Under the pieces are notes generated by a model. The model was given only the letters and a program-made list of their open reading frames with translations. It did not search any database and was not told the origin of the DNA. Both the position numbers and the translations under genes were made by a program. DNA of 41,135 nucleotides from Candidatus Rokuibacteriota bacterium. GTDB taxonomy: Bacteria > Methylomirabilota > Methylomirabilia > Rokubacteriales > CSP1-6. The stretch spans positions 1 to 41,135 of the forward strand of contig QHSQ01000164.1 in the NCBI GenBank assembly GCA_003221615.1, in the 5' to 3' direction. Below are positions 11,821 to 41,104 of the stretch, piece by piece. Positions within the stretch are counted from its first letter, which is position 1. Each line of letters starts with the position of its first letter.

Positions 11821-11846
11821 GTCAGCTCCCAGTTACGTCGTTCGAG

Positions 11847-11947
11847 GCGCCGGCTTTGCCGGCGCAACCGGATCTTGGCCGTCGCACCGGGTAACCGGTG
11901 GGGCGCATTCGGGGGGAGCGGCGCTCGCTCCCCCATCTTAATCAATT
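11847..11947 (-). repeat. Dispersed two-hairpin element, copy A
   Basis: Two strong hairpins follow the alcohol dehydrogenase stop. One pairs 11847-11854 with 11858-11865 (8 bp, TTT loop). The other pairs GGGGGAGCG at 11912-11920 with 11926-11934 (9 bp, 5-nt loop). Next to the second stands ATCT-TAA-TCAATT (11935-11947), shared with copy B near 38440. The last Asn codon and stop of the dehydrogenase lie inside the TCAATT. Neither hairpin has a U tract. Confidence 0.6.
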
Positions 11948-13039: not shown

Positions 13040-13101
13040 GCGGGTTTCCTCCCGTCCGAGGCCCGTGTTCTCACCGAGCCTCGCAACCGAACCCGGCGCA
13101 G

Positions 13102-13107
13102 TATAAT
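13102..13107 (+). promoter_or_regulatory. Consensus -10 box upstream of the TauD-like gene
   Basis: TATAAT stands alone in GC-rich DNA 27 bp before the ATG at 13134 and just before GAGGAGG. No good -35 hexamer is found 16-18 bp upstream, so an extended or activator-dependent promoter is possible. The region is shared with the divergent alcohol dehydrogenase gene. Confidence 0.4.
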
Positions 13108-13133
13108 CCCGACCAGCGGTGAGGAGGGGGAGC

Positions 13134-24575: not shown

Positions 24576-24660
24576 CTCGTCGCTCCTTTCGCGGGCACAA
24601 CCGTCGCGGGCACTTCTCTCGAGGACACTTCGGAAGGCGCCGTAATCCACCCCCGGGTTC

Positions 24661-25529: not shown

Positions 25530-26822
25530 TCAGCGTGTCGCGCGGTCGAGCCAGGCCAGATCTTGCGGCGACGGACGGAAGCCGAGCCGCCGGTGGATCA
25601 GCCGCTGGGCGTCGTCGAGGCGACCGAGCCGAAGGTGGCAGACCACCATGGTCTCCTCGAAGAGCTCCCACTGGGCGTGGCTGCCGCCGACCCGGTGGAT
25701 GTCGCCGTCGACCGATTCCATGAGGGCGAGGGCCCCGGCGTAGTCTCCGGCCACGTAGGCCGCGACACCCCGGACCAGCGGAAGGGCTACCGTGCCGGCG
25801 ATGGGGTGACCCTTGGCGTGGAGCGTCTCCAGCCCGGCGACCAGGGCTGACAGCGCGGCGTCGTCGCGGGCCGACGCGAACGCGAGCGCGGCGTGGACGT
25901 CGCCGAAGATGAAGCCCGGGCGCGTGACACGGGTCGCGAGGTCGGCCAGGCGGCGCCAGGGTAGCGGCCCCTTCTCGTAGTCGTAGAGGTCGAACCGCCA
26001 CAGCAGCGCCGAGCCGTCGATCATGGCCAGACGAGGGTTGGACGACGGCGCGATGTCCTGCTCGTAGATCGCGAGCGCCCGCTCCGGTCGTCCGCGCTGC
26101 AGCTCGAACAGTGCGAGGTGCCAGGCGAGATGGCAATGAAACGGCGCGCGCCGATCGTAGCCGCCGAGCCAGTCCGCGAGCAGCGCGAGGCCGCCGTCGT
26201 TGTCGACGGTCTCGTAGCAGACGTGGGCGATGTTGTGGCTCGCGTTCGCGTTACCCGGATACTGGGCGAGCGAGCGCTCCGACAGACGGCGCGACTCTTG
26301 GTAGCGCCCGACCTCGTGGTACGTGAACCCGAGCGCGGACTGATACCACCAGTCGTCGCCGTAGGCGCGGGCCAGCCCTTCGACGAAGGCGACCCGAAAC
26401 GCCTCGCGATCGACGCGACCGCCGAGGCCGATGGTGCTGCCCGCCTGGTTCACGAGCAGTGCGTCGCGCGGGAACTCCTTCACGTGCTCCTCGATCAGAC
26501 CGAGCCCGCGCGCGGCTTCACCGCCGGCGATCGCGGCGAGCGCCGCGACGTGCTGCTGCTCGCGCCGCGTCGCGCCGGCCACCAGGGTGCGCGCCCGCTC
26601 GATCGATGCTTTCGCGGTCGCGCCGTCGCCCTGGAACAGCGCGAAGAGCGCGGCGCCGGCATGACCGAGCGCGAATTCCTCGTCCGCCGCCACGGCCGCG
26701 GCGAATGCCTGGTCGGCGCCGAAGCCGTAGGAAAGCAGCCGGTCCATGCCGTCCTGGTAGTGGCGGGCGGCGACGGGCGACGCCGTCGAGAGCGGCAGAT
26801 CGTAGCGGTCGGTGAGGCTCAT
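25530..26822 (-). CDS. TPR-repeat protein
   Basis: A 430-residue protein made of helical pairs of the tetratricopeptide type. Clear repeats include FAAAVAADEEFALGHAGAALFALFQGD, WWYQSALGFTYHEVGRYQESRRLSERSLAQYPGNANASHNIAHV, LALFELQRGRPERALAIYEQ and GVAAYVAGDYAGALALMESV. No signal peptide or catalytic motif is visible. TPR proteins serve as scaffolds or regulators; this one starts in an ATGA overlap with the SMP-30 gene, so its job is probably tied to that enzyme and the neighbouring phosphorylase. ATG at 26822 (MSLTDRYDLPL) is used; an upstream frame is not credible. Confidence 0.85.
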   Translation of the reverse strand: MSLTDRYDLPLSTASPVAARHYQDGMDRLLSYGFGADQAFAAAVAADEEFALGHAGAALFALFQGDGATAKASIERARTLVAGATRREQQHVAALAAIAGGEAARGLGLIEEHVKEFPRDALLVNQAGSTIGLGGRVDREAFRVAFVEGLARAYGDDWWYQSALGFTYHEVGRYQESRRLSERSLAQYPGNANASHNIAHVCYETVDNDGGLALLADWLGGYDRRAPFHCHLAWHLALFELQRGRPERALAIYEQDIAPSSNPRLAMIDGSALLWRFDLYDYEKGPLPWRRLADLATRVTRPGFIFGDVHAALAFASARDDAALSALVAGLETLHAKGHPIAGTVALPLVRGVAAYVAGDYAGALALMESVDGDIHRVGGSHAQWELFEETMVVCHLRLGRLDDAQRLIHRRLGFRPSPQDLAWLDRATR

Positions 26823-27760
26823 GGCCTGTTCAGGTGCTTGAGGGCGAGGCCGGGCCGCGGCCACTCGAACGACACGAGCGTGCCGCCCATCGACAAGGTC
26901 GCGAACGCGGTGCGGAGATCGCGGCCGCCGAAGCAGACGTTCGTGACCATCAGATCGGGCAGCTTGTACTGATCGACGCGGCTGCCGTCGGGCCAGATGT
27001 CGCTGACCGCGCCGGTGATCAGGGTCGCCACGCAGATGTGGCCCTCGCCGTCGACCGCGAGCGAGTCGAACATCTGGTAGCCGCCGAGCCCGGTGATGAC
27101 GGTGCCCTTCTCGCCGCGATACGGGCCGTTCGCCGACTCGATCTGGCCGGGCGCCGAGAGCTTGAACGCCCAGCAGCGCGCGGTCGGCGTCTCGACGACG
27201 TAGAGCGTGCGCTCGTCCGGCGAGAGCCCGATCCCGTTCGGCCGCTCGAGCGGGAAGATCGCCTCCTTGATCAGCGAGCCGTCGGCCTTCGCGTAGTAGA
27301 CGGCCCCGCGATCCATGTCACGATCGCGTGTCTTGCCGAGATCCGTGAACCAGAAGCCGCCGGCGTCGTCGAAGACGAGATCGTTCGGCCCGCGGAGCTT
27401 CATCCCGTCGCACGAGTCGTAGAGCGTCTCGAACTTTCCGGTCTCTGGGTCGACGATCTGGATGAGACCGCCCGTGTAGTCGTCGGCCTGCGCGATCGGA
27501 AACATCTTGCCCGGGCGCTCCATGAACTTCAGGCCGCCGTTGTTGGTCACGTAGATCTTGCCCTTCGGGCCCATCGCGGCGCCGTTGGGCCCGCCGCCGA
27601 GATTGGCGATCACACGCACTTTGCCGTCGGACGTGACGCGCGAGAGCGTGTGGCGCTCGATCTCGACCAGCACCACCGAGCCGTCGCTCATCGCCACCGG
27701 GCCCTCGGGAAAGCGCAGGCCCGACGCGATCTGCTTGAGCGCTGGGGTGATCATCTTCAA
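26819..27760 (-). CDS. SMP-30/gluconolactonase/LRE family protein
   Basis: A 313-residue six-bladed beta-propeller lactonase. Metal-site residues are the Glu of LRFPEGPVAM (about residue 19), the Asn of LRGPNDLVFDD, the Asn of FPLERPNGIGLSPDE, and an Asp in YQMFDSLAVDGEG. Such enzymes open sugar lactones using Ca, Zn or Mn. AGGAGG lies 5 nt before a TTG start at 27760 and 11 nt before an ATG at 27754; either may be used. It is translationally coupled to the TPR protein downstream and preceded at 22 bp by the MTAP-like phosphorylase gene. A lactonase next to a nucleoside phosphorylase could process a sugar lactone released from a nucleoside-like compound, which is inference. Confidence 0.92.
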   Translation of the reverse strand: MKMITPALKQIASGLRFPEGPVAMSDGSVVLVEIERHTLSRVTSDGKVRVIANLGGGPNGAAMGPKGKIYVTNNGGLKFMERPGKMFPIAQADDYTGGLIQIVDPETGKFETLYDSCDGMKLRGPNDLVFDDAGGFWFTDLGKTRDRDMDRGAVYYAKADGSLIKEAIFPLERPNGIGLSPDERTLYVVETPTARCWAFKLSAPGQIESANGPYRGEKGTVITGLGGYQMFDSLAVDGEGHICVATLITGAVSDIWPDGSRVDQYKLPDLMVTNVCFGGRDLRTAFATLSMGGTLVSFEWPRPGLALKHLNRP

Positions 27761-27782: not shown

Positions 27783-28769
27783 TCACTTCGCCGCGCGCGG
27801 GCTCAGCGCCCGCGCGTACTCCGGGGGCCGGACGCGCAAGAGCTCCCGACACCGGCACGCGCTCGGCTCGCCGACCCCGTCGAGGAACGCGAGCTCGAGG
27901 TTCGCCGCCACCGTCGGCAAGGTTTCCATGTAGAGCTGATTCAGGGTGATCGTCGGGTCCTCGGGCTCGAGGCCGGTGCCCCAGTTGGCAACGACGTGAT
28001 AGTAGGCCAGGTGCATCCCGCATACGCGGGCCAGCACCGGGCTGACGCAATCACCGGTGATCACGGGCATTCCGATCTGGCGGCCCGAGGCTTCGAGCAT
28101 CCGGCAGGTCGCGAGCGACTCGAAGCCGTTTCCCGCGAGCCAGCGGTTCAGCACCACGCCGGCGTCCGGCCCGTGGATCCGGCGGAATCTGAAATCGGGC
28201 TGTCGCTCGGCGTCCGCTCGCAGCACCTCGGCCAGCGGCGGGCAGAACGGATCGTCCATGATCGCGACCTGCCGCGGCAAGCAGAACTCGAGCTCGGTGC
28301 CGGGCAGGCCCGTCGGCATCGTGTCGCGCGTCAGATAGCTCTTCGGCAGCACGAGATCGCCGGGACGGACCGCGTCCTCGTCCGCCACCGTGCGCCGCCA
28401 GTCGCAGCTTCCGCTGGTGCCGCCGACGAGCAGCACGCGAACTCCCGCCTTCCACAAGATCCAGAACGTTTTCCACTCGCTGGCGTGGAGCAGCGGGTCC
28501 TCGTCGACCACCTGACCGTACGTCGGGATGCGCAGGAACTCTCGCCCGCTCGGCCCGCGGAAGTGTTCGACCTGAGGACCGAGGCCGTACGGCGTGCGGG
28601 GCCGATGAACGGCGAGTCTCGTGTGACCGCGCGCGGCCGCGAACTCGTGGAAGCGATCGCCGAGGCCCCAGGTGGGGCTTCCGCCGAGCGTCGCGAACGC
28701 GGCGCGCGGGCCCGTGTATTCGATGCTCGGGTCGAGAGTAGAGAGGCAGCCCGCCTGTCCGGCGCTCAC
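27783..28769 (-). CDS. Purine-nucleoside/MTA phosphorylase-like protein
   Basis: A protein of about 328 residues related to the PNP/methylthioadenosine phosphorylase family. AAFATLGGSPTWGLGDRF matches the N-terminal GG-x-G loop, RVLLVGGTSGSCDW and VRPGDLVLPKSYLTRDTMP match the central base/phosphate region, and the segment ending VITGDCVSPVLARVCGMHLAYYHVVANWGTGL is the late domain. The catalytic Asn-Asp of true PNPs is not clearly seen, so activity is uncertain. I prefer GTG at 28769; the only ATG, at 28943, would overlap the divergent operon start and encodes Arg-rich residues without similarity. It is the first of three minus-strand genes with SMP-30 and TPR. The reading as phosphorylase is moderate. 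Confidence 0.65.
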   Translation of the reverse strand: MSAGQAGCLSTLDPSIEYTGPRAAFATLGGSPTWGLGDRFHEFAAARGHTRLAVHRPRTPYGLGPQVEHFRGPSGREFLRIPTYGQVVDEDPLLHASEWKTFWILWKAGVRVLLVGGTSGSCDWRRTVADEDAVRPGDLVLPKSYLTRDTMPTGLPGTELEFCLPRQVAIMDDPFCPPLAEVLRADAERQPDFRFRRIHGPDAGVVLNRWLAGNGFESLATCRMLEASGRQIGMPVITGDCVSPVLARVCGMHLAYYHVVANWGTGLEPEDPTITLNQLYMETLPTVAANLELAFLDGVGEPSACRCRELLRVRPPEYARALSPRAAK

Positions 28770-28853
28770 CGTCGCAGCGTAGGTGAGGCCGGAGCCGAGG
28801 TCAAAGGGAACGTCGCGCGCTTGGATTCTCTGGGGAAACCGGCTAAGGTTGCG

Positions 28854-28902
28854 GAGCGGTCGACCCGAGCGTCGACCGGAGCGGTCGACCGAGCGGTTCG
28901 AG
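28854..28902 (+). repeat. Four tandem ~12-bp repeats upstream of the ABC operon
   Basis: Four head-to-tail units of GAGCGGTCGACC type run 28854-28866, 28867-28878, 28879-28890 and 28891-28902. The core GGTCGACC is itself palindromic; unit 2 lacks one G and unit 4 reads GGTTCGAG. They lie 22-70 bp before ATG 28924, just before a strong GAGGAGGA, and between divergent genes. The ~12-bp period suggests an operator array. Confidence 0.55.
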
Positions 28903-28923
28903 TGTGAGCCTCGAGGAGGATAT

Positions 28924-29976
28924 ATGAGCAGGACGCCCGCCAATCACGATCTGACCCGCCGCCAGATGCTCGGCCGCTCCGCCTCGCTGCTCGCCGGACT
29001 GGCAGCGGGCAGCGGCGTCGTCTCGGTCGCGCGCAGCGCGCCAGGCGCCACGAGCGAGGTGACGTTCCAGCTCGGCTGGATCATCAGCAATGGCCAGATC
29101 GGCGAGATCGTGGCGCGAAGCCTCGGGTATTTCGAGGCCGAGCAGATCAACCTGAAGGTCGCGCCCGGCGGTCCCAACGTCGACGGCGTCGCGGTCGTGG
29201 CGGCCGGCTCCGCGCAGGCGGGCAACCTGTCGTCGAGCCCGTCCCTGATGCTGGCCCGCGCGGGCGGGATTCCGGTGAAGTGCTTCGCGGTCGGTTATCA
29301 GGAGCACCCGTTCACCTATTTCTCGCTGTCGAAGAAGCCAATCCGTACCCCACAAGACATGGTCGGCAAGAAGATCGGCACCCAGGGGACCGCGCGGATC
29401 CTCCTGCGCGCGCTGCTCGCCAAGAACAAGATCAAAGAGTCCGACGTGCAGATCGTCATCATGGGCAGCGACATGCTGCCGCTCGTCACGGGTCAGGTCG
29501 ACGCGGTCACCGGCTGGCTCACGAACGTGAGCGCGCTGAGGGCGCTCGGTCCCGACCGGGTCGACATGCGGCTCTGGGACGCGGGCATCCAGCTCTACGC
29601 GAACCTCTACTACGCGACCGATGAGACCGTGCAGAAGCACGCCGAGGTCCTGGCCGGATTCACGCGCGCGGCCGCCAAGGGTTGGCTCTACGCGTACCAG
29701 AACCCCGAGAAGGCCGTCGACCTGCTCGTGAAGGCCTACCCGAACCTCGATCGCGACGCCGAGCTGGACGCGATCAAGCCGGTGCTCAACTTCAGCTTCA
29801 CCAAGACCACCGCGGCCAAGGGCTGGGGCACGATGGAGCCCAGCGTGTGGGAGCAGCAGATCCACATCTACGAGGGGCTCGCGCAGTTCAAGGGACCGGC
29901 CCCGAAGGCCACCGACGTGATGACCGACTCCATTCTGAAAATGACGGCGGCCGCGCGACCCAAGATCGGCGCGTAG
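28924..29976 (+). CDS. ABC transporter substrate-binding protein (NitT/TauT, NMT1/THI5-like)
   Basis: A 350-residue periplasmic binding protein. The N-terminus LTRRQMLGRSASLLAGLAAG has a twin-arginine motif (Arg12-Arg13) and hydrophobic core, so Tat export is likely. The mature part begins VTFQLGWIISNGQIGEIVARSLGYFEAEQINL, typical of THI5/SsuA-type domains; VAVVAAGSAQAGNLSSSPSLMLARAGG and MVGKKIGTQGTARILLRALL fit the second strand-helix set. Such proteins bind nitrate, sulfonates, taurine or pyrimidines. ATG at 28924 has GAGGAGGA 4 nt upstream. It is the first gene of a nine-gene array with its ATPase and permease next, and four tandem repeats before it. Ligand not predictable. Confidence 0.93.
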   Translation: MSRTPANHDLTRRQMLGRSASLLAGLAAGSGVVSVARSAPGATSEVTFQLGWIISNGQIGEIVARSLGYFEAEQINLKVAPGGPNVDGVAVVAAGSAQAGNLSSSPSLMLARAGGIPVKCFAVGYQEHPFTYFSLSKKPIRTPQDMVGKKIGTQGTARILLRALLAKNKIKESDVQIVIMGSDMLPLVTGQVDAVTGWLTNVSALRALGPDRVDMRLWDAGIQLYANLYYATDETVQKHAEVLAGFTRAAAKGWLYAYQNPEKAVDLLVKAYPNLDRDAELDAIKPVLNFSFTKTTAAKGWGTMEPSVWEQQIHIYEGLAQFKGPAPKATDVMTDSILKMTAAARPKIGA

Positions 29977-29997
29977 GGCAGCGAGACCGCCGAGCCC

Positions 29998-30780
29998 ATG
30001 AACAGTCTCGGCGCGGCTCCCGCCGTCAGGCTCGACGGCGCGACGGTTCGATTCACGAGCGAGCGCGGCTCCGTCACCGCGCTCGAGAACGTCGGGCTCC
30101 AGGTCCCGCCGGGCGGCTTCATCAGCCTCCTGGGCCCGTCGGGGTGTGGCAAGTCGACCCTGCTCAGACTCGTCGCCGACCTCGTCGCGCCGACGCAGGG
30201 CGCCGTGACGGTGCTGGGTGGACCGCCGGAGACGGCGCGGCTCAATCGCGAGCTCGGCTTCGTGTTCCAGGATGCGACCTTGCTGCCCTGGCGCTCGGCG
30301 CTCGAGAACGTCCGCTTGCCGCTGGAGGTCGGCCCGAAGAAACGCGATCGGTCGGGTCTGCGCAAGCCCGAAGAGCTCCTGCGGCTGGTCGGCCTCGGCG
30401 GCCGCGAGGACGCGCTGCCCCACGAGCTGTCGGGCGGTATGCGTCAGCGCGTCGCGATCGCCCGCGCGCTGGTCGCGGAGCCGCGAATTTTGTTGATGGA
30501 CGAGCCGTTCGGCGCGCTGGACGAGATCACGCGTGACACCTTGAACGAGGAGCTCCTGAGAATCTGGCAGGAGACGGGCACGACCATTCTCTTCGTCACG
30601 CACAGCATCCCGGAGGCCGTCTTCCTGTCGCAATACGTCCTCGTCCTGGCGACCAACCCCGGACGGGTCCGCGAGCTCGTCGAGTGCGAATTGCCCTATC
30701 CCCGGCCGCTCAGTGTCCGCGAGACGCCGGAGTTCATCCAGATCGCCTCGCACCTGCGCGCGCTCCTGCAGACCTGCTAA
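29998..30780 (+). CDS. ABC transporter ATP-binding protein (NitT/TauT family)
   Basis: A 260-residue ATPase subunit. Walker A is GPSGCGKST (46-54), the Q-loop is [11 protein letters not shown] (89-98), the signature is LSGGMRQR (144-151), Walker B is [13 protein letters not shown] (164-176), and the switch His is in [14 protein letters not shown]. This pattern is the SsuB/TauB type. It follows the binding-protein gene by 21 bp and its TAA shares one base with the permease ATG, so the three subunits are co-translated. Works on the cytoplasmic side to power uptake of the compound bound by the upstream protein. Confidence 0.97.
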
Positions 30781-31616
30781 TGGCCGACAAGCCCACCGCC
30801 GTGATCGCCGAGCCGGCGGCGCCGCTTCGCGAGCGCGCGCCGATCGTGTCGAAGCCGCCAACGGCGCGGTCTCAGGCGCTGCTGCCGTTCATCGCGGCGG
30901 CGGTGCTGCTGGCGGCGTGGCAGATCCTGGCGCAGGTGTTCTCGCTGCCGATCTACATCGCGCCGACCCCGATGCAGGTGGCGCGTACCCTGGTGAGCGA
31001 GCTGCCCACGCTCATGCGCAACTTCGTGCCGACCGCGCTCGAGAGCCTGGTCGGCTTCGTCGTCGGCAACACGATCGCGATCGTCGTCGCCGTCGTGTTC
31101 GTGCACTCCCGGCGGCTGGAAGCCGCGCTCTATCCGATCGCGGTGTTCGTCAACACGATTCCGATCCTGGCCAAGGCGCCGATCCTCGTCCTGATCTTCG
31201 GGCTCGGGATGACCTCCAAGGTCGTGATCGCCGCGTTCATCTGCTTCTTCCCGACTCTCGCCAACATGGTCCGCGGCCTCACGTCGGTCAATCCGCAATC
31301 GCTCGAGCTCATGCGCGTGCTGTCGGCGAGCAAAGCCGAAGTGTTCTGGAAGCTCCGCGTCCCGAGCTCGCTGCCGTTCCTCTTCTCGGCGCTGAAGATC
31401 GCCTCGACCACCTCGGTGCTCGGCGCGATCGTCGGCGAGTGGATCGGCGCCGATCTCGGCCTGGGTGCCCTGATCATCGAGGCCACCCACAACTTCCGAT
31501 CGCCGCTCCTCTACGCGACGGTGTTCGTCGCCTCGGGCTGGGCCGTGGTCTTCTTCGCGGTGGTCAGCTTCGCCGAGCGGCGCATCGTGACGTGGAAGCA
31601 GGGCGAGGCGTCCTGA
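30780..31616 (+). CDS. ABC transporter permease (NitT/TauT family)
   Basis: A 278-residue inner-membrane permease with about six hydrophobic helices, from AAAVLLAAWQILAQVF through LVGFVVGNTIAIVVAVVF, MTSKVVIAAFICFFPTLANM and ATVFVASGWAVVFFAVVSF. The coupling-loop motif is ELMRVLSASKAEVFWKLRVP, the SsuC/TauC-like EAA region. A Pro/Ala-rich N-terminal tail of about 30 residues precedes the first helix. ATG at 30780 overlaps the ATPase stop by one base. Partner of the two preceding subunits; no second permease is present, so it probably acts as a homodimer. Confidence 0.95.
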   Translation: MADKPTAVIAEPAAPLRERAPIVSKPPTARSQALLPFIAAAVLLAAWQILAQVFSLPIYIAPTPMQVARTLVSELPTLMRNFVPTALESLVGFVVGNTIAIVVAVVFVHSRRLEAALYPIAVFVNTIPILAKAPILVLIFGLGMTSKVVIAAFICFFPTLANMVRGLTSVNPQSLELMRVLSASKAEVFWKLRVPSSLPFLFSALKIASTTSVLGAIVGEWIGADLGLGALIIEATHNFRSPLLYATVFVASGWAVVFFAVVSFAERRIVTWKQGEAS

Positions 31617-32959
31617 TGGCGCCGCCGACGGTCGCGGAAGCGACGCGCGCGACGCCGGTCGTCGACCGGAGCGACGTGCTCGTGGTGGGCGGCGGTCCGG
31701 CCGGCGTGAGCGCCGCCGTGGCCGCGGCGCGCAGCGGCGCACGGGTCACGTTGATCGAGCGCTATCCGTATCTCGGCGGGCTCGCGTCCGGTGAGATGGT
31801 GCTCGTGCTCGACGACATGGTGAACGGTGGCGAGATCACCACGACGGGACTCATCGGTGAAGCCATCGAGCGGCTCGAGAAGCTCGGCCTGGCCGTGTCG
31901 CCGCCGCCCCAGGACCGTCGCGTGGGCTGGGACGTGTGGCGCACCTGGGCGCGCTGGGGGTGCAACGACTTCCGCGCCCGCGGCAAGCCGCAGCCGATCG
32001 TCTACGCGGTCGCGTTCGATCCCGACGGCTGGAAGCGCGTCTCCGAGGATCTGGTGGTCGAGAGCGGCGTGAGCTTGAGACTGCACAGCTGGTTCTCCGA
32101 GCCGATCGTCGAGGACGGGCGTCTCCGGGGGGTCGTCGTCGAGACCAAAGCTGGACGCCAGGCGCTCTTGTCGGAGATCGTCGTCGACGCCACCGGCGAT
32201 CTCGACGTCGCCGCCCGCGCCGGCGCGCCGCACGTGGTCGGCGCCTACATGGTCACGACGGTGTTCCGGCTCGGCAACGTCGACACCGAGACGGCCCTGC
32301 GTTTCGAGCACGAGCACCCGGAGGAGTTCGGCGTGCTCGACCGGCAGGCCAAGCGTCTGCTCGGTGGCGCGTGGGACATGTGGTGGCTCAAGACGCCGCT
32401 GCCCGGCATCGTCTGGTGCAACTGCCCGCACATGACCGGCTACGACGCGCTTCGCGTGGAAGACATGACCGCCGCCGAGCTCGAGGGCCGCCGCCGCATC
32501 GCGTCCCTGATGGCCTTCGCGCGCGCCGAGCTCCCCGGCTTCGCGCACTGCTATCTCGTCGATGTCGCGCCCCAGCTCGGCGTCCGGCAGACGCGGCTGC
32601 TCGAGGGCGAGTACGTCGTCACCAAGCAGGACGTGCTCGAGCGGCGCCACTTCCCCGACACGGTCTGTCGAGGGCGCGACTACTACACGCCGTACCGCGC
32701 GCTGCTTCCCCGGAACGTCGACCAGCTCATCGTGGCCGGTCGGCACTACTCGGCGGAGCTGCAGGCGCAGAAGATCTCGCGCGAGATCCCGCCGTGCATG
32801 GTGCAGGGTCAGGCCGCCGGCATCGCCGCGGCGCTGGCCCTGTCGAGCGGGACGCGCGTGCGCGACGTCGACCCGAGGGCGATCCAGCGGACGATGCGCG
32901 CTCAGGGCGCCGATCCCGGCGACGTCCCCTCCGCGAACGCCGCGCCGGCCAGCGCGTAA
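31616..32959 (+). CDS. FAD-dependent oxidoreductase (FAD-binding PF12831-like)
   Basis: A 447-residue flavoprotein. The FAD-binding Rossmann motif is VLVVGGGPAGVSAAVAAARSG (residues 21-41) followed by ERYPYLGGLASGEM. The second FAD segment IVVDATGDLDVAARAGAP (about 185) and the C-terminal LIVAGRHYSAE and VQGQAAGIAAALAL close the site. Length and motifs fit the PF12831-type FAD-dependent oxidoreductases. Cysteines in RWGCNDF and VWCNCPHMTG could serve redox roles. The ATG overlaps the permease stop (TGATG). It probably oxidises the imported compound in the cytoplasm; the specific reaction is unknown. Confidence 0.9.
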   Translation: MAPPTVAEATRATPVVDRSDVLVVGGGPAGVSAAVAAARSGARVTLIERYPYLGGLASGEMVLVLDDMVNGGEITTTGLIGEAIERLEKLGLAVSPPPQDRRVGWDVWRTWARWGCNDFRARGKPQPIVYAVAFDPDGWKRVSEDLVVESGVSLRLHSWFSEPIVEDGRLRGVVVETKAGRQALLSEIVVDATGDLDVAARAGAPHVVGAYMVTTVFRLGNVDTETALRFEHEHPEEFGVLDRQAKRLLGGAWDMWWLKTPLPGIVWCNCPHMTGYDALRVEDMTAAELEGRRRIASLMAFARAELPGFAHCYLVDVAPQLGVRQTRLLEGEYVVTKQDVLERRHFPDTVCRGRDYYTPYRALLPRNVDQLIVAGRHYSAELQAQKISREIPPCMVQGQAAGIAAALALSSGTRVRDVDPRAIQRTMRAQGADPGDVPSANAAPASA

Positions 32960-32967
32960 GCCGCTCG

Positions 32968-33741
32968 GTGGACTTCGAGGTCTGCTTCCTGCCGCGCGAG
33001 GCGACGCGGACGCCCTCGCCTGTCGCGGTGCTGATCGACGTCATCCGCGCCAGCACCACGATCGTGACCTTGCTGGACTGCGGCTGCTCGGAGGTCGTCC
33101 TGGTCGGCCAGAAGGATCGCCCGCGGCTCGCCGAGCTCCGCGCCAAGCTCGGCGCCCTGGTGTGCGCCGAGGACGCCTCGGGGCTCCAGGCCGCCGGCGC
33201 GGATCTCACGCCCTCACCGGCGGCTCTGCACGCCCTCGACCTCGCGGGCCGGCGGGTCATCCTCGCCACGACCAACGGCACGCTCGCGGCCGAGCTCGTG
33301 CGCGAGTGCGGCGTCGAGCACGTGCTGATCGGATGCATGCGCAACGGCGACGCGGTCATGCGGTCGGCGGTCGCGCTGGCGCGCCGCCTCGACCGGAGCA
33401 TCAGCCTCGTGTGCGCCGGGCGCGAAGGGAGCCTGATTCCGGCGCTCGACGATGCGTACTGCGCTGCGGCGCTCCTGCGCCACGGCGAGGCGCTCGTCCG
33501 AGCCGCCGGGGCCACCGTGTCGCTGCGCGAGTCGGCGAAGATCGCGCGGAACGCGGCGTCGGTGTTCGCCGGGACCCGCGAGGCGTTCGACCAGTCGATG
33601 TCGGCCGCCGTGATACGACGCATCGGCTCGCCGGACGACGTGGGCTACTGCGCCGAGGAAAACGTGTCGCAGCTCGTGCCGGTCCTGACCTTCAGCAGCG
33701 GGATTCCAGCCATCGTCGTGAAGAAGGAGATCATGGGATGA
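32968..33741 (+). CDS. ComB-like 2-phosphosulfolactate phosphatase family protein
   Basis: A 257-residue protein of the ComB fold. The conserved VLIDVIRASTTIVT (residues 21-34), ILATTNGT (about 96), LIGCMRNGDAVM, SLVCAGREG and EDxx-like ALDDAYCAAAL segments match the family, whose archaeal member removes phosphate from 2-phosphosulfolactate on the way to coenzyme M. Bacteria with ComB homologues usually lack coenzyme M, so another phosphorylated acid is likely. GTG at 32968 is the start, 8 bp after the FAD gene; it overlaps the next gene by ATGA. In this context it may remove phosphate from a product of the phosphorylase step, which is inference. Confidence 0.88.
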   Translation: MDFEVCFLPREATRTPSPVAVLIDVIRASTTIVTLLDCGCSEVVLVGQKDRPRLAELRAKLGALVCAEDASGLQAAGADLTPSPAALHALDLAGRRVILATTNGTLAAELVRECGVEHVLIGCMRNGDAVMRSAVALARRLDRSISLVCAGREGSLIPALDDAYCAAALLRHGEALVRAAGATVSLRESAKIARNAASVFAGTREAFDQSMSAAVIRRIGSPDDVGYCAEENVSQLVPVLTFSSGIPAIVVKKEIMG

Positions 33742-34577
33742 CGCCACCAGACTGGACTTCGGCGGCGACTCGGCCCGAGATGGACGCGGGCCTGCAATAT
33801 CACATCCGGTGCAAGCGCGGCGACGTGGAGCGCTACGTGCTCCTGCCGGGTGATCCGGAGCGGGTCGATCTCATCGCCGCCGAGTGGGACGAGTCGCGGC
33901 GCATCGCCAACTACCGCGAGCATCGGACGTTCTCCGGCCGGGTCGGAGGGATCGCGCTCACGTGCTGCTCGACGGGCGCGGGCGGCGGCTCGACCTCGAG
34001 CGCCATGGAGGAGCTGGCGGTGCTCGGCGGTGAGACCTACATCCGCGTGGGAACCACGGCGGCGCTCCAGCCGGAGATCGAGTGCGGGGACATCGTCATC
34101 TCCTCGGGCGCGATGCGCCACGACGGGACGAGCCAGTACTACGTCGACCCGGCGTACCCGGCCGTCGCGCACTACGCGGTGACGGCGGCGCTCGTGGAGG
34201 CGGCCGACCGGCTGGGGCTCCGATACCACGTCGGCGTGAGCTGCTCGACCGCGTCGTTCTACTGTGGCCAGGGACGACCCGGGTTCAACGGATACGAGCA
34301 GGCGTTCTTTCGCGACAAGGTCGACGATCTGCGGCGCGCCGGTGTCCTGAACTTCGAGATGGAGGCCGCCACGATCTTCACGATGGCCGGCCTCTACCAC
34401 CTGCGCGCGGGCGCGGTCTGCGCGGTGATCGCCAACCGCATCACCGATCGCTTCGTCTACGGCGGCATCGAGCACGCCGTGAGGGCGGCGAACACGGCCG
34501 TGCGCATCCTCGCCGAGTGGGACGCGCGGCTGACGCGCGCGGGCAAGCGCCACTGGTTTCCGTCCCTGACGGCCTGA
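33738..34577 (+). CDS. Uridine phosphorylase-like nucleoside phosphorylase
   Basis: A 279-residue PNP/UDP-family protein. VLLPGDPERVDLIA (34-47) and CCSTGAGGGSTSSAMEELAVLG are the phosphate-site motifs, ETYIRVGTTAALQPEIECGDIVIS is the base-binding strand, and VLNFEMEAATIFTMAGL carries the Glu-Met-Glu ribose motif. These are typical of uridine phosphorylase. The family cleaves nucleosides with phosphate to give ribose-1-phosphate and base. The ATG lies in an ATGA overlap with the ComB-like gene. It is the second nucleoside-phosphorylase-fold gene within 6 kb, with the divergent MTAP-like one, which suggests that the imported compound contains a glycosidic bond. Confidence 0.92.
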   Translation: MTPPDWTSAATRPEMDAGLQYHIRCKRGDVERYVLLPGDPERVDLIAAEWDESRRIANYREHRTFSGRVGGIALTCCSTGAGGGSTSSAMEELAVLGGETYIRVGTTAALQPEIECGDIVISSGAMRHDGTSQYYVDPAYPAVAHYAVTAALVEAADRLGLRYHVGVSCSTASFYCGQGRPGFNGYEQAFFRDKVDDLRRAGVLNFEMEAATIFTMAGLYHLRAGAVCAVIANRITDRFVYGGIEHAVRAANTAVRILAEWDARLTRAGKRHWFPSLTA

Positions 34578-34582
34578 GCGCT

Positions 34583-36025
34583 GTGGCGGCGAGCGCGCCG
34601 AGCGTCTACATCGCCAACGCGCGGCTGGTTCGGCTCGGCGCCGGGGCTGAGCCGCGTCCAGGTGGCGTGCTCGTCGAGGGCGACTCGATCACGGCCGTCG
34701 CGCTGACCGACCGGGAGCAGCGCGAGACTCGGTCGCGGGCGCGCGAGGTCTTCGACGCTGCCGGGATGATCCTGATGCCCGGTCTCGTCAACGCGCACTA
34801 TCACTCGTACGGCACGTTACTGAAGGGGACGCAGAACCGGCTGCCGCTCGAGCCCTGGGCCCTCTACACCGTGGCGTACGGCCGAGCGCTTGGCGCCGAG
34901 GCGATCCGCCTGGCCGTGATGCTCGGCGCCGCCGAGATGATCCGCAACGGGATCACGGCCTGCCTCGATCACTTCCCGCACACGCGATGGGCCGAGGCGG
35001 CGCTGAGCGCCCACGAGGCGAGCGGCATGCGTGTCGCGTTCGCGCCGTTCATCCACGATGTCTTCGATCACGAGTTCTTGCAGATCGCGCTGCCGCCGGA
35101 GATCCGCGCCATGCTCGACACCGCGCCGCGTTCCAGCGCCGGATCCGCCGAGCGCATGTACCGCGACCTGGAGAGCCGCTGGCGCGGACACCCGCGCGTC
35201 ACGATCTTGCTGGGCCCGAACGCGTTCCAGCGCTGCTCGCCGGCGCTGCTCGCCGTGTGGCGCCGTCTGGCCCATGATCTCGGGCTCCACGCCCACACGC
35301 ACCTCGTGGAAACGCGGGTCCAGGCGGTGCGCGGGCGCGCGGCGTGGCCGGGCGGAACCGTGGAGGAGATGGCGCGTGCGGGTCTTCTGAGCGAGCGGCT
35401 CTCGGTCGCCCACGGCGTCTGGCTCACACCGGACGAAGGCGAGATCCTCGCCCGTCACGGCGTCACGGTCGTCCACAATCCGGCGAGCAACCTGATGCTC
35501 GGCAGCGGGCGCCTCGCGCTGTCGACGATGCTCGAGCACGCCGTCCCGCTGGCGCTGGGCACCGACTCGTCGAACTCGGGCGGCCGCCACGATCTCTTCG
35601 AGGTGATGCGCCTGGCCCTCATGCTGCCGCGACCCGATACGACGGACCCGCGCGCGTGGCCCGAGGCGCGTCAAATCCTGGAAATGGCCACGACCGGGGG
35701 CGCGCGCGCCATCGGTCACGCCCAAAAGCTCGGCCGCATCGAACCGGGACAGCGAGCCGACCTCGTGCTGCTCGATCCGCGGGGCGCCGCGCTGGCCGGC
35801 GCGCCCGTGACGGTGGCGCATCTGGTCCAGCACGCCGGCGCCTCCGCGGTGGCCGCCGTCATGATCGACGGCACGTGGGCGCTCCGCGACGGCCGGATCC
35901 TGATCTTCGACGAGGCCGCCGTGCTCGACCAGGTCGCGGCCATCTCGGCCGAGGTTCGTGCGGCGGCGGGCCCGGAGCTCGTGCTCGCCGAGACCGCCGC
36001 CCCGTACTTCCAGGCGTGTGGCTAG
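34583..36025 (+). CDS. Aminohydrolase/deaminase of the SAH-deaminase/chlorohydrolase group
   Basis: A 480-residue metal-dependent amidohydrolase of the cytosine/guanine/8-oxoguanine deaminase and AtzA/TrzN branch. Metal ligands are His72 and His74 in VNAHYHSYGTLLKG, His in LHAHTHLVET, and Asp in LALGTDSSNSGGRHDLFE; VAHGVWL and VTVVHNPASNLMLGSG are further hallmarks. The C-terminal strand LGRIEPGQRADLVLLDPRG closes the sandwich domain. GTG at 34583 follows the phosphorylase stop by 5 bp. Expected to remove an amino or other leaving group from a heterocycle, consistent with neighbouring nucleoside phosphorylases. Exact substrate unknown. Confidence 0.92.
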   Translation: MAASAPSVYIANARLVRLGAGAEPRPGGVLVEGDSITAVALTDREQRETRSRAREVFDAAGMILMPGLVNAHYHSYGTLLKGTQNRLPLEPWALYTVAYGRALGAEAIRLAVMLGAAEMIRNGITACLDHFPHTRWAEAALSAHEASGMRVAFAPFIHDVFDHEFLQIALPPEIRAMLDTAPRSSAGSAERMYRDLESRWRGHPRVTILLGPNAFQRCSPALLAVWRRLAHDLGLHAHTHLVETRVQAVRGRAAWPGGTVEEMARAGLLSERLSVAHGVWLTPDEGEILARHGVTVVHNPASNLMLGSGRLALSTMLEHAVPLALGTDSSNSGGRHDLFEVMRLALMLPRPDTTDPRAWPEARQILEMATTGGARAIGHAQKLGRIEPGQRADLVLLDPRGAALAGAPVTVAHLVQHAGASAVAAVMIDGTWALRDGRILIFDEAAVLDQVAAISAEVRAAAGPELVLAETAAPYFQACG

Positions 36026-36047
36026 CGATCGAGCCGTTCGTCTGCGG

Positions 36048-36078
36048 TATGATCGCGCCCATAGACTGGCCCATAGAC
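36048..36078 (+). promoter_or_regulatory. -10-like box and 10-bp direct repeat before the racemase gene
   Basis: TATGAT at 36048-36053 matches the -10 consensus at five of six bases. It is followed by GCCCATAGAC at 36057-36066, repeated exactly at 36069-36078 with a 12-bp period. This 70-bp gap is the widest inside the array, so the racemase/DadA pair may have its own regulated promoter. No good -35 was found. Confidence 0.4.
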
Positions 36079-36095
36079 GAATTGTTGAGGTGGCC

Positions 36096-37103
36096 ATGCG
36101 CTCGGATCGCGTGATCTCGACCATCGACTTTCACACCGCCGGAATCGGGATGCGTCTGCTCACGAGCGGCCTCGGGCGGCTCCCGGGAGCCACGATCGGC
36201 GCGAAGCGACGCTTCTTCCAGGAACACCACGACGACCTCCGGACCGGGCTCTGCCTCGAGCCGCGCGGGCATCGCAGCCTGTTGATCGCGGTGATGACGG
36301 AGGCGGTGACGCCGGGGGCTCACTTCGGGCTCTTCTTCATGTACCCGGGCGGGTACTACGTCTCCTGCGGTGAGGGCACGATCGGCGCGGCGACCGTGGC
36401 CATCGAGACCGGGATGGTTCAGCGGCTCGGCGCCGAGACGCCCGTCGTCATCGACACCGAGGCCGGCGTCGTCGAGACGATCGCGCGCTCCGACCGCGAC
36501 CGCGTCCGCGAGGTCACCTTGCGCTGGGCGCCGTCCTTCGTCGTGCTCACCGGGCAGAGCGTCGAGGTCGAGTCCTTGGGCGAGGTGCCGGTGGACGTGT
36601 CGGTCGGCGTCGGCAACGTCTTTGCCATCGTCGAAGCCGACAAGGTGGGCGTGTCGGTGCGGCGCGATCTCGCCCGGCGCATCGCGCAGCGAGGCATGGC
36701 GATCCGCGAGGCCGTCAACGCTCAGCTCCAGGTGGACGTGCCCGGTCTCGGCAAGGCCAGCGTGGACAACGTCCTCATCCACGAGCTGCCGGACGGCGGC
36801 GGCGTATCGCCCAACGCGCTCGTGTGGGGTCCGGGCCAGGTCGATGCGGCGCCGTGCGGGTCGGGCACCTGCGCGCGCATGGCGCTGTTCCATCATCGCG
36901 GTCTCATGCGCGTGGGCTCGAGCATCACCAGCCGCGGGCTCCTGGGGCTCGACTTCACCGGCCGGATCGCCGGTGAGACCACGGTCGAAGGCCGGCGCGC
37001 GATCCTGCCGGAGATCACCGGGACCTCGTACCTCACCGGCTTCAGCCAGTTTCTCTTCGATCCGGAAGACCCGGTGCGCGCCGGGTATCTCCTCGAGGGG
37101 TGA
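36096..37103 (+). CDS. Proline racemase/4-hydroxyproline epimerase family protein
   Basis: A 335-residue enzyme of the PLP-independent proline racemase superfamily. The two catalytic cysteines are Cys91 in YVSCGEGTIGA and Cys254 in AAPCGSGTCAR, so a two-base racemase or epimerase is expected rather than the dehydratase subgroup, which lacks the second Cys. The usual CGHG is CGEG here (His to Glu at 93), and PCGTGT is PCGSGT; the active-site surroundings are therefore unusual. ATG at 36096 with GAGG 5 nt before it is chosen. It is followed 4 bp later by a DadA-like dehydrogenase, the partner expected when an L-amino acid is epimerised and the D-form oxidised. Confidence 0.9.
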   Translation: MRSDRVISTIDFHTAGIGMRLLTSGLGRLPGATIGAKRRFFQEHHDDLRTGLCLEPRGHRSLLIAVMTEAVTPGAHFGLFFMYPGGYYVSCGEGTIGAATVAIETGMVQRLGAETPVVIDTEAGVVETIARSDRDRVREVTLRWAPSFVVLTGQSVEVESLGEVPVDVSVGVGNVFAIVEADKVGVSVRRDLARRIAQRGMAIREAVNAQLQVDVPGLGKASVDNVLIHELPDGGGVSPNALVWGPGQVDAAPCGSGTCARMALFHHRGLMRVGSSITSRGLLGLDFTGRIAGETTVEGRRAILPEITGTSYLTGFSQFLFDPEDPVRAGYLLEG

Positions 37104-37107
37104 TCGC

Positions 37108-38358
37108 GTGAAGACCCTCGTGCTCGGCGGCGGCGTGGTGGGCGTGACGACGGCGTACTTCCTGGCGAAGGCGGGTCACGAGGTGACCTTGGTCGACGAG
37201 AAGGACGGGGTCGGGCTCGAGGCCAGCGCCGGCAACGCCGGGATCATCGCGCCCGGCCACTCGTTCGCGTGGGCCTCGCCGCGCGCGCCGCGCATGCTGT
37301 GGGAGTCGCTGCGCGGGGCCGAGACGGCGATCCGAATCCGGCCGACGACCGACCTTCGCCTGTACACGTGGGGGCTTCGCTTCCTGCGCGAGTGCACGGC
37401 GGACCGCGCGAAGCGCAACACGCTGATCAAGCTGCGGCTCTGCCAGTACAGCCAGGCGGTCATGAACGAGCTGGTCCGCGCCGAGCAGATCGAGTACCAC
37501 GCGATCGCGAAGGGTGCACTCTATCTCTATCGAGACGGGGCCGAGCTCGACGCCGGCGTGAAGAAGATGGCGCTGCTCGCGGAGCATGGGCAGAAGCAGG
37601 AGATTCTGGATGCTCGGGGCGTCGCCCAGCTCGATCCGGTCTTCGAGCCGGTGCAGGGGAAGATCGCCGGCGCGATCCGCGACGTCGGCGACTCGAGCGG
37701 CGACTCCCGACTCTTCGTCGAGAACCTCGCGCGAGTCTGCCGCGAGAAGCTCGGCGTCGTGGTGAAGCTCGGCACGCGTGTGACCGAGTTGCGCGGCGAC
37801 GCCGACCGCATCGATGCGGTCCTCACCAGCGCCGGCGAGCTCAAGGCGGACAACTACGTCCTGGCGCTGGGCGTCGGCGCGCCGAGCATCGCGCGTACGG
37901 TGGGCGTCGGCCTGCCGGTCTATCCCGCGAAGGGCTACTCCTCGACGTTCCCGCTGAAGCCGGGCGGGCGCTCGCCGACGGTGCCCGGCGTCGACGAGAA
38001 GTGGCTGGTCGGCTGGTCGCGGCTCGGCGATCGGCTCCGTCTCACGTCGACCGCGGAGTTCGCCGGCTACGACTGGGGCTGGACGCCGCGCGACTTCAAC
38101 AACATCCTCAAGCTCGCCCGCGATCTCTTTCCCGACGCCGCCGACTACGACCGCGGCGAGTACCGCGCGTGCCTGCGTCCGATGACGCCGGACGGGCCGC
38201 CGATCCTCGGGCTCGGTCGTCACCGGAACCTGTTCTTCAACAGCGGGCACGGCCACATGGGATGGACGATGGCGTGCGGCACCGCGCGGATCGTCGCCGA
38301 CCTGATGACCGGGCGCATGCCCGCGCTGGATCTCGAAGGCTTGACTCCTCGCCGGTGA
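37108..38358 (+). CDS. DadA-like D-amino acid dehydrogenase (FAD)
   Basis: A 416-residue FAD-dependent dehydrogenase of the DadA/glycine-oxidase family. The FAD motif LVLGGGVVGVTTAYFLAKAGH (residues 5-25) is followed by ASAGNAGIIAPGHSFAWASP, a DadA hallmark. LPVYPAKGYSSTFPL and the late RPMTPDGPPILGLG and FNSGHGHMGWTMACGTARIVADL segments complete the substrate and FAD sites. GTG at 37108 is the start. With the racemase-like gene it forms the epimerise-then-oxidise pair seen in hydroxyproline catabolism. Electrons would pass to the respiratory chain. The gene ends the array and is convergent with livF. Confidence 0.93.
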   Translation: MKTLVLGGGVVGVTTAYFLAKAGHEVTLVDEKDGVGLEASAGNAGIIAPGHSFAWASPRAPRMLWESLRGAETAIRIRPTTDLRLYTWGLRFLRECTADRAKRNTLIKLRLCQYSQAVMNELVRAEQIEYHAIAKGALYLYRDGAELDAGVKKMALLAEHGQKQEILDARGVAQLDPVFEPVQGKIAGAIRDVGDSSGDSRLFVENLARVCREKLGVVVKLGTRVTELRGDADRIDAVLTSAGELKADNYVLALGVGAPSIARTVGVGLPVYPAKGYSSTFPLKPGGRSPTVPGVDEKWLVGWSRLGDRLRLTSTAEFAGYDWGWTPRDFNNILKLARDLFPDAADYDRGEYRACLRPMTPDGPPILGLGRHRNLFFNSGHGHMGWTMACGTARIVADLMTGRMPALDLEGLTPRR

Positions 38359-38454: not shown

Positions 38455-39154
<700 letters not shown>

Positions 39155-39162
<8 letters not shown>

Positions 39163-41104
39163 GCGGCTCGCGCTCGTAGCCGGTGCCCAGGTAGGCCTCG
39201 ATCACCTTGGGATGGCGCTGGATCTCCGCGGGCGTGCCCTCCGCGATGCGCACACCGTAGTCGAGCACGGTGATGCGGTCGGAAATCCCCATCACGACTT
39301 CCATGTCGTGCTCGATCAGGAGAATCGCCAGCTCGAGCTCGCGTCGGAGCGATCCGATCAGCGCGGTCAGGTTCTCGGTCTCGCGCGGGTTCATGCCGGC
39401 GGTCGGCTCGTCGAGCAGCAGCAACCGCGGCTCGGTGGCCAGCGCCCGGGCGATCTCCAGGCGGCGCTGGTCACCGTACGGCAAGTTGCGCGCCACGTCG
39501 TGCTCCTTGCCCTCGAGGCCGATGAAAGCGAGCAGCTCGCGAGCCCGCTCCCGGGCGCGAGCCTCTTCGGTGACGACCGACGCGGGCCGCAGCACGGCGC
39601 CGGGGACGCTCGCACGCAGGCGACAGTGCTCGCCCACGAGCACGTTTTCGAGCACGGTCATCTGAGGGAACAGGCGGATCGACTGGAACGTGCGCGCGAT
39701 CCCGCGCTCGACGATCGCGTTGGGCCGAAGCCCGACGATGCTCGCGCCCTCGAACGCGATGCGGCCCCCGTCCGGCGCGATGAGACCGGTCACGACGTTG
39801 AAGAACGTGGTCTTGCCGGCGCCGTTGGGACCGATCAGGCCGATGATGGCGCCGCGCGGGACGATCAGGTCGACCTCGCCCAGGGCGACGACGCCGCCGA
39901 AGCGCCTGGCCACGCCGCGCACGTCCAGGATCGGGTCGACCGCGCTGCCGCTCCGGGCGCGCTCGAGGAGCCACGCCGGCAATGCGTGAACGCGCCGGGG
40001 CGCTTCCTCGATGCGCGGCGAGTCGAGGTCGTCGTCGACGGGCGCGACCGGGCGTACGCGGCGCCCGGCCAGGCCCTCGGGCTTCAGCAGCATCACGAGG
40101 ACCAGCCCGAGGCCGAAGAAGAACCAGCGCCACAACGTGACGTCGGCGACCGCGAGCGCGTGCACGCCCGTGGCGCGTCCGACCCAGCGCACGAAGAAGG
40201 TCATCTGCGAGAGCGCGACGCGATCGAAGATCGTGATGAGCATGCCGCCGAGGATCACGCCCTTGAGGCTGCCGGCGCCGCCGAGCACGACCATGCACAG
40301 GAGCATGATCGACACCTGGAACTCGAACGCGCCCGGGGTGATCGCCTGGAGCTTCGCGGCATAGACGGAGCCGGCAAACCCAGAGAACGAGGCGCCCAGC
40401 GCGAAGGCCAGGAGCTTGGTCGAGATCGGGTTCACGCCCGTACAGTCGGCGGCGGTCTCGTCCTCGCGGATCGCCATCCAGGCGCGGCCCAGCCGCGAGT
40501 CGCCCAGGCGATTCATCGCCCACAACGAGAGCGCGCCGATGACGAGGATCAGGAAGTACCAGGGCACCGGATCGGTCTCGAACGGCACGCCGGGCAAATG
40601 CGGGCGGCCGATCGGATTGACGCCGTTCTCGCCGCCGGTCAGGTTGAGCCGCTCGATCGGCCGCCAGCCACCGATGTCGATGGTGATGTCGCCGAGGTTG
40701 CGGATCGCGACCGGGATGATCTCGCCGAACCCGAGCGTGATGATCGCCAGGTAGTCGCCGCGCACCCGCAAGGTCGGCGCGCCGATCGCCGTGCCGAGGA
40801 GCGCTGACACTGCCGCCGCGATCCAGATGCAGACCCAGAAGCTCCAGGGGTAGCCATACAGCGGCGAGCCGAGGACCGGCGAGTTGAGGAGCCCCATCGC
40901 GTAGGCGCCGATCGCGAAGAACGCGGCGTAGCCGAGGTCGAGCAGGCCCGCGTAGCCGACCACGATGTTGAGCCCGAGGGCGAGGAGTACGTAGATCATT
41001 CCGTCGGAGACCGCGTGGACGGTCTGGAGCCCGAGCGCTCGGTCCACGAACGGGTAAGCGAGCAGCGCGGCGACCAGCGCCGTCCATCGGAGCGCCGGCG
41101 TCAT
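39155..41104 (-). CDS. LivM-LivG fusion: branched-chain amino acid-type ABC permease and ATPase
   Basis: A 649-residue fusion. Residues 1 to about 343 are a LivM permease with several membrane helices (LLALGLNIVVGYAGLLDLGYAAFFAIGAYAMGLL near 41-73; LGASFSGFAGSVYA near 236-249; WRWFFFGLGLVLVMLLKPEG near 325-344). Residues 345-390 are a charged, Pro/Arg-rich linker. Residues 391-649 are a LivG ATPase: Walker A GPNGAGKTT (425-433), IARTFQSIRLFPQMTVLENV, signature LPYGDQRRLEIARAL (541-555), Walker B LLLLDEPTAGMNP (561-573) and ILLIEHDMEVVM. The fusion, known in scattered high-GC bacteria, ties one ATPase to one membrane subunit. The ATG overlaps the upstream gene by ATGA. Confidence 0.95.

Follow-up and report, generated by a model that had tools for sequence, protein, structure and literature searches.

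A composite locus in Candidatus Rokuibacteriota with an eight-gene block that may import and break down a nucleoside-like compound

A run of twelve genes and its three units

The stretch of DNA analyzed here (the window, 41,135 nucleotides) is one contig (C571) of a 7.24-Mb, 596-contig metagenome-assembled genome (MAG) of Candidatus Rokuibacteriota that is 96.5% complete and 8.6% contaminated. It holds a divergent run of twelve genes that look like three units lying side by side, each with its own distribution among genomes (Table 1). Unit A consists of genes for a TPR-repeat protein and an SMP-30 family lactonase (SMP30). Block B comprises eight genes, from an MTAP-like gene through a substrate-binding protein (SBP), the ATPase and permease of its importer, an FAD-dependent oxidoreductase (FAD), a ComB-family protein and a uridine phosphorylase (UP), to a TRZ/ATZ-type amidohydrolase (AH). 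Unit C pairs a proline racemase family protein with a DadA-like dehydrogenase.

An initial annotation, made from the sequence alone, had placed all twelve genes between positions 27783 and 38358. Ten do lie there; the lactonase and TPR genes fall to the left of that span. The families that it named are all supported by profiles (NMT1-type SBP, ABC ATPase, permease, FAD_oxidored, ComB, UP, Amidohydro_1, Pro_racemase, DadA, SGL and TPR), except for the MTAP-like phosphorylase, which reaches no Pfam or NCBIfam cut-off. Its description of genes following one another without real gaps is accurate from SBP to AH: stop and start codons overlap at the ATPase/permease, permease/FAD and ComB/UP junctions, and AH opens at the UP stop, where a CTG is a possible start. 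It does not extend to the racemase, which is set off from AH by a gap of about 70 bp containing a conserved TATGAT motif.

In 36 comparisons (the twelve genes, window against three relatives), the ratio of nonsynonymous to synonymous substitution rates (dN/dS) is 0.06-0.33, with values of 0.11-0.16 for the MTAP-like gene. Because the ratio stays within this range for every gene, it indicates that the reading frames are real and that all twelve genes are under purifying selection. Contamination is an unlikely source of the locus, since the identical gene order recurs in five other genomes of uncultured soil bacteria. The architecture of the locus, its distribution and conservation, the family membership of its products and the active-site residues of UP and AH are directly supported by the data described below.

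Table 1. Genes and candidate control elements of the locus, in window coordinates
Feature	Position	Strand	Remarks
TPR-repeat protein	25530..26864	-	Unit A, neighbor outside block B; Pfam match
SMP-30/gluconolactonase family protein (lactonase)	26819..27760	-	Unit A; PF08450 (SGL) 171.1 bits
MTAP-like protein, remotely related to the nucleoside phosphorylase superfamily	27783..28742	-	Block B; PF01048 14.5 bits, below cut-off; open frame extends to 28943, start at 28742 tentative
Conserved element CTTGGATT-N16-TAAGGT	28820..28849	+	Upstream of importer operon; candidate promoter/operator
NMT1/THI5-type SBP	28924..29976	+	Block B; PF09084 166.8 bits
ABC transporter ATPase	29998..30780	+	Block B; PF00005
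ABC transporter permease	30780..31616	+	Block B; PF00528
FAD-dependent oxidoreductase (FAD_oxidored)	31616..32959	+	Block B; PF12831 299.9 bits (gathering score 27)
ComB-family phosphatase-like protein (2-ph_phosp)	32962..33741	+	Block B; PF04029 149.3 bits (cut-off 26.4); start codon tentative
Uridine phosphorylase (UP)	33738..34577	+	Block B; TIGR01718 281.6 (cut-off 280.3); PNP_UDP_1 PF01048 111.7 bits
AH, TRZ/ATZ-type, probable deaminase	34574..36025	+	Block B; Amidohydro_1 PF01979 164.9 bits; start codon tentative
TATGAT motif	36048..36053	+	Upstream of racemase gene; candidate -10 element
Proline racemase family protein, Cys/Cys type	36096..37103	+	Unit C; PF05544 292.3 bits
DadA-like D-amino acid dehydrogenase (DAO)	37108..38358	+	Unit C; NF001933 385.8 (cut-off 383)

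Distribution of the units among genomes

The genomes compared are numbered G### and the fetched loci L###; G001-G008 are the other genomes labelled as belonging to the genus of the window. Conservation of gene order had been put forward as a check on the initial annotation, and it gave a divided answer: all twelve genes occur in the same order in five of these eight congeners (G002, G003, G005, G006 and G007, besides the window), and the full order is absent from G001, G004 and G008 and from genomes outside the genus. A scan of genome contigs from 84,980 species with an alignment of the MTAP-like protein, which relies on two short peptides and detects close relatives only, returned 106 stretches that matched the pattern. 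Six encoded a relative, at five loci, all of them in Rokuibacteriota MAGs, apparently the five congeners again, and all retaining the gene order of the locus.

Within the genomes searched, block B is complete in six genomes of one genus and was found as a set in none outside them. Close matches to the MTAP-like protein (at least 75%) occur in 7 of 148 genomes, namely the six block genomes and G059, a member of another family that has no other gene of the block. The remaining queries each returned six genomes: ComB (at least 73%) among 148, UP (at least 91%) and FAD (at least 85%) among 94, and AH (at least 72%) among 59. The distribution of block B was counted from these five queries; an MTAP-like match in G055 (E 5e-4, 31%, part of the query) and a UP match in G021 (47%) were not counted as block members. 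More distant family members are common (ComB family in 85 of 148 genomes, FAD-domain proteins in 94 of 94, amidohydrolase family in 57 of 59).

Units A and C are separable from block B because both reach further. Counting the window's own, 21 of 59 genomes have an SMP30 orthologue (at least 81%). Block B is present in none of five SMP30 loci fetched from these, although one of the five, L164, does have genes for a distant ABC ATPase and permease at a distance of about 2 kb. Racemase orthologues (at least 66%) occur in 15 of 59 genomes, invariably with DadA adjoining (15/15); nine of these lack block B, and seven of the nine belong to other genera. The TPR gene adjoins SMP30 also in the block-less congeners G001, G008 and G004. 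In G004 this pair is present without the racemase or block B, and in G001 and G008 units A and C lie next to each other, 85-108 bases apart, with no block B.

The spacer between SMP30 and the racemase in G001 and G008 contains a stretch of 35-66 bp resembling the spacer between the MTAP-like gene and SBP in the window and G007 (scores 45-62; the highest of 100 shuffles gave 30-39). The remaining block genomes, G002, G003, G005 and G006, show no comparable match. When TPR, SMP30, racemase and DadA sequences were concatenated for a tree, G001 and G008 fell among the genomes that carry block B, with modest support (77 and 60); G029 entered this tree by DadA alone, since its racemase has an in-frame stop, and G032 and G004 were left out. 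On the strength of the spacer stretch and the tree we favor, short of proof, a loss of block B in G001 and G008. The geometry would demand two events around the stretch, either deletions or insertions. The two spacers lie at L123 8281-8388 and L124 10472-10556, and the stretch in each is a possible deletion scar. In-frame stops noted in FAD and racemase homologues (G034:C93:14794-16116, G040:C148:4837-6159 and G029:C84:31706-32710) could be assembly errors or hit overrun.

Two upstream motifs are conserved. The TATGAT motif begins 12 to 80 bases ahead of the racemase start codon in all eight racemase-bearing genomes of the genus (the window, G001, G002, G003 and G005-G008), with or without block B; G029 has it at 64 bases, and G011, G012, G015, G025, G032 and G033 have none within 100 bases of the racemase. 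A 30-base element (Table 1) precedes SBP in all six block-bearing genomes. A consensus scan for sigma-70-type promoters found 0 promoter-like sites (0.6 expected), and both motifs are therefore candidate elements only. Their placement suggests that block B and the racemase-DadA pair are transcribed separately.

Unit C is most readily understood as an independent unit for an imino or amino acid. Both racemase cysteines (CGEG, PCGSGT) align with those of 7pb3, an arrangement that we take to be that of racemases and epimerases, and the His of CGHG is replaced by Glu. Like known pairs of hydroxyproline/proline racemase and D-amino acid dehydrogenase, unit C sets the two families side by side with a Cys/Cys-type racemase; unlike them, it falls short of the equivalog cut-offs for proline racemase, hydroxyproline epimerase and dehydratase (289.9 vs 556, 210.4 vs 376 and 246.1 vs 540), whereas DadA passes its subfamily cut-off. 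Convergent to unit C, at 38455-41104 of the window, lie LIV-type transporter genes (LivF and a fused LivM-LivG), and LivF adjoins racemase-DadA in at least three genomes without block B as well (G011, G012 and G032). Further catabolic genes are found nearby in the window, at 10786-14078 and 22875-24650, and encode proteins of the Amidohydro_2 and Amidohydro_3 families, a zinc alcohol dehydrogenase and a TauD-family dioxygenase.

The importer-flavoenzyme module and the enzymes of block B

The first four genes of the importer operon have close counterparts elsewhere. The FAD protein matches 116 records, 56 of them at 60-80%, and from these we viewed nine loci that have a close homologue of it (L071-L075, L131, L136, L166 and L167). 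Seven of the nine, from Rhizobiales and others (Paracoccus, Ensifer (two), Chelatococcus, Roseibium, Rhizobium and Agrobacterium), are plasmid loci that match SBP, ATPase, permease and FAD gene for gene and in the same order, with identities of about 52-57% for SBP, 61-69% for the ATPase, 57-69% for the permease and 62-67% for FAD. The other two are actinobacterial and have an MFS transporter gene in the importer's place. A CaiB-type CoA transferase and an enoyl-CoA hydratase are annotated after the FAD gene in seven of the nine loci; in L166 and L167 the unannotated gene of this pair was found by tblastn, split over two pieces. Ferredoxin is annotated in eight loci, a DapA-like protein in seven and an aldehyde dehydrogenase in six. 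A deaminase-family gene occurs in six. It belongs to PF00383 in the Chelatococcus and Roseibium loci and to PF01979 in those of Ensifer (both), Rhizobium and Agrobacterium; the L131 amidohydrolase, the one compared with NCBIfam, is TRZ/ATZ-like. The plasmid operons and block B thus have the importer and FAD genes in common and often a deaminase-family gene; the CoA transferase, hydratase, ferredoxin, DapA-like and aldehyde dehydrogenase genes belong to the former only, whereas ComB, UP, the MTAP-like gene and the block's own AH belong to the latter. The hosts of the plasmid operons, which span for instance L071 7232-15981, L075 6221-15433 and L136 9887-19505, are root and soil bacteria.

Three Rokubacterial genomes of the window's own family (G034, G040 and G048) have an importer-FAD-enoyl-CoA hydratase-CaiB arrangement. 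The first four genes are those of block B, with the CoA route downstream instead; FAD is 58-59% and SBP 39-40% like the block's, and this importer is more distant from that of the block than are the plasmid versions. In the FAD tree the block sequences group with the plasmid sequences and are split from five own-family or outgroup Rokubacterial copies (support 87). Because of this grouping, we suspect that the FAD gene of the block was acquired horizontally. The SBP misses the cut-offs for known ligands (SsuA 57.8 vs 163.5; taurine 37.6 vs 490; SaoX 26.5 vs 300).

Two enzymes of the block retain recognizable active sites. UP narrowly exceeds the uridine phosphorylase equivalog cut-off, and in an alignment with 1ryz_A all 12 ligand residues checked are matched (H8, G26, R30, R48, R91, T94, F162, Q166, R168, M197, E198 and R223). 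Presumably Gln and Arg contact uracil, Met, Glu and His the ribose, and Arg and Thr the phosphate. The block's enzyme has these contacts in common with bacterial uridine phosphorylases and differs from them in its operon, where it accompanies an NMT1-type importer, an FAD oxidoreductase and a TRZ/ATZ amidohydrolase. AH conserves HxH, HxH..E, H and D, which we take to be its metal-binding and catalytic motifs, in an alignment with 4f0r, and misses the equivalogs for 5'-deoxyadenosine (221.6 vs 522), MTA-SAH (146.5 vs 779) and 8-oxoguanine (197.8 vs 532) deaminases.

The ComB-family protein had been taken to bring a phosphorylated acid into the pathway, but its score places it in the broad family only; both 2-phosphosulfolactate phosphatase equivalog cut-offs are missed (NF010700 111.5 vs 332; TIGR00298 98.9 vs 175.05). 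On a Mesorhizobium plasmid (L076 8064-12843) a ComB-family gene overlaps one for a ribokinase, and nearby are genes for dehydrogenase, mandelate-racemase-like and SMP-30 proteins, a hint that ComB proteins of this kind may act on sugar phosphates.

The MTAP-like protein has no NCBIfam match. By tblastn it has relatives in five Rhizobium/Agrobacterium plasmid records (26-28%, E 2e-6 to 8e-8, 48-80% of the query), three of them annotated as MTA phosphorylase; the two that were scored both reach PF01048 (41.4 and 47.8 bits). A 77% copy in G059 (L050 6720-12649) has as its neighbors an NMT1-type importer other than the block's (152.8 bits), a second phosphorylase-family gene (73.9 bits) and a gene for a PnrA-like nucleoside-binding protein (136.7 bits). 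This is the only case observed, apart from block B, of an NMT1-type importer beside an MTAP-like gene. The importers beside the annotated MTA phosphorylase genes of Agrobacterium (L078 1611-8318) and Rhizobium (L077 5217-9891), both on plasmids, were considered as NitT-type and rejected, Pfam assigning them to the SBP_bac_8 type; XdhC-family genes follow in L078.

The families themselves are known. In one open-access library (subscription journals and preprints lay outside the scope of the search) we found neither the combination of ComB, UP and AH behind this importer-FAD pair nor a pairing of 2-phosphosulfolactate phosphatase with uridine phosphorylase, no gene cluster of proline racemase, D-amino acid dehydrogenase and ABC transporter, no work on the substrates of the ComB phosphatase family, nothing relevant on nucleoside ABC transporters of Rokubacteria and no function assigned to the plasmid importer-FAD-CoA operon. 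The one match for a cluster of nucleoside phosphorylase, NitT importer and deaminase appears to concern nucleoside-dependent growth in Thermococcus.

A possible route for a nucleoside-like compound

We propose, tentatively and with confidence that falls somewhat short of even, that the locus is composite and that block B imports, oxidizes, deaminates and phosphorolyzes a nucleoside-like compound; about the exact chemistry we are less confident again. Such import and breakdown is plausible because the eight genes occur together in six genomes, the contacts of UP are kept, and the MTAP-like gene of G059 has nucleoside-related neighbors. The initial annotation's idea of uptake and breakdown of a nucleoside-like or nitrogenous compound is thus plausible for the middle eight genes, and unsupported as a joint pathway of twelve. 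The substrate, the order of the steps and the roles of ComB and the MTAP-like protein are what we infer. The NMT1-type importer would bring in a small compound, N-heterocyclic or nucleoside-like; its oxidation may be the task of the FAD enzyme, which is next to the importer in most of the related loci viewed; AH would remove an amino group; UP would split the N-glycosidic bond with phosphate; and the ComB-family protein could take the phosphate off the resulting sugar phosphate or off a related acid. The MTAP-like protein may handle a second nucleoside form or may have lost its activity, and the racemase and DadA would act apart from block B, on an imino or amino acid.

Several observations weigh against this proposal. 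ComB and AH are the loosest of the twelve genes (dN/dS up to 0.33), and AH has Tyr at the position of a Glu of MTA/SAH deaminases that we take to be ribose-contacting. The MTAP-like protein (E=0.023) and its G059 copy (11.8 bits) both lie below the PF01048 gathering score of 25.1, and its remote relatives in L078 and L077 adjoin importers that are not of the NMT1 type. AlphaFold models built from six close sequences have pLDDT values too low for fold comparison (39.5 for the MTAP-like protein, 31.0 for FAD) and carry no weight either way. The gap between AH and the racemase is only about 40-180 bp across the genomes, so that transcription could read through from one to the other. A Rhizobium plasmid (L135, 9875-12485) carries an importer 50-60% like that of the block with no FAD gene adjoining. 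Finally, the plasmid operons use a CoA transferase and an enoyl-CoA hydratase, and no match to UP, ComB or the MTAP-like protein was found in any of the nine loci viewed; for that reason the substrate of the importer need not be a nucleoside.

This last point leads to the strongest rival, which we consider unlikely on the whole, if a serious competitor: within the same composite locus, the importer and FAD would handle the acid of the plasmid operons, normally processed by a CoA-ester route, and UP, AH and ComB would be a nucleoside salvage add-on sharing the promoter only. The importer and FAD are 52-69% identical to the plasmid proteins as a unit, and the block FAD is nearer to nine plasmid homologues (62-66%) than to the copies in its own family (58-59%), from which the tree separates it. 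Against this, none of the six block genomes has a close CoA transferase (the best are at 37-40%, the level of block-less congeners, compared with 55-60% in the three own-family genomes bearing the CoA version), the DapA-like gene is equally generic (34-37%), and seven genes of the block are closely packed. Less probable, in our view, is ordinary nucleoside salvage, in which an NMT1-type importer has replaced a nucleoside permease and the FAD enzyme is incidental. The canonical residues of UP and the G059 locus, with its NMT1-type importer, second phosphorylase, PnrA-like protein and no block-type FAD gene in the stretch fetched, fit this, but it leaves unexplained an FAD gene that comes directly after the importer in each of the seven plasmid operons viewed that have one and in three loci of the window's own family, and block B includes no DeoB/DeoC-type sugar-phosphate enzyme. 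These two alternatives share the composite architecture and differ in chemistry, and our estimates accordingly overlap and do not sum to one. Least probable is a single pathway of all twelve genes for one compound, as first annotated: the order shared by five of eight congeners, the short gaps and the purifying selection throughout speak for it, but SMP30 and racemase-DadA are distributed more widely and separately, in other genera without block B, G001 and G008 keep units A and C without it, and a conserved motif of its own precedes the racemase.

Returning to breakdown of a nucleoside-like compound by block B, we can speculate on a fuller version, which we regard as doubtful while ranking it a little above ordinary salvage. 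Block B would be an as yet undescribed route for a modified nucleoside in which oxidation by an importer-linked flavoenzyme is followed by deamination and phosphorolysis, with ComB serving as phosphatase for the sugar phosphate and the divergent MTAP-like protein representing a new subfamily of phosphorylases, and it would have originated when nucleoside enzymes took the place of the CoA-ester branch in an importer-flavoenzyme module that is widespread. If block B works as proposed, an importer-flavoenzyme pair common on the plasmids of soil and root bacteria would be linked to nucleoside chemistry, ComB-family phosphatases would gain a candidate role beyond coenzyme M synthesis, and a divergent phosphorylase subfamily would be defined. 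The locus also illustrates that a neat-looking run of genes can be three units with separate distributions.

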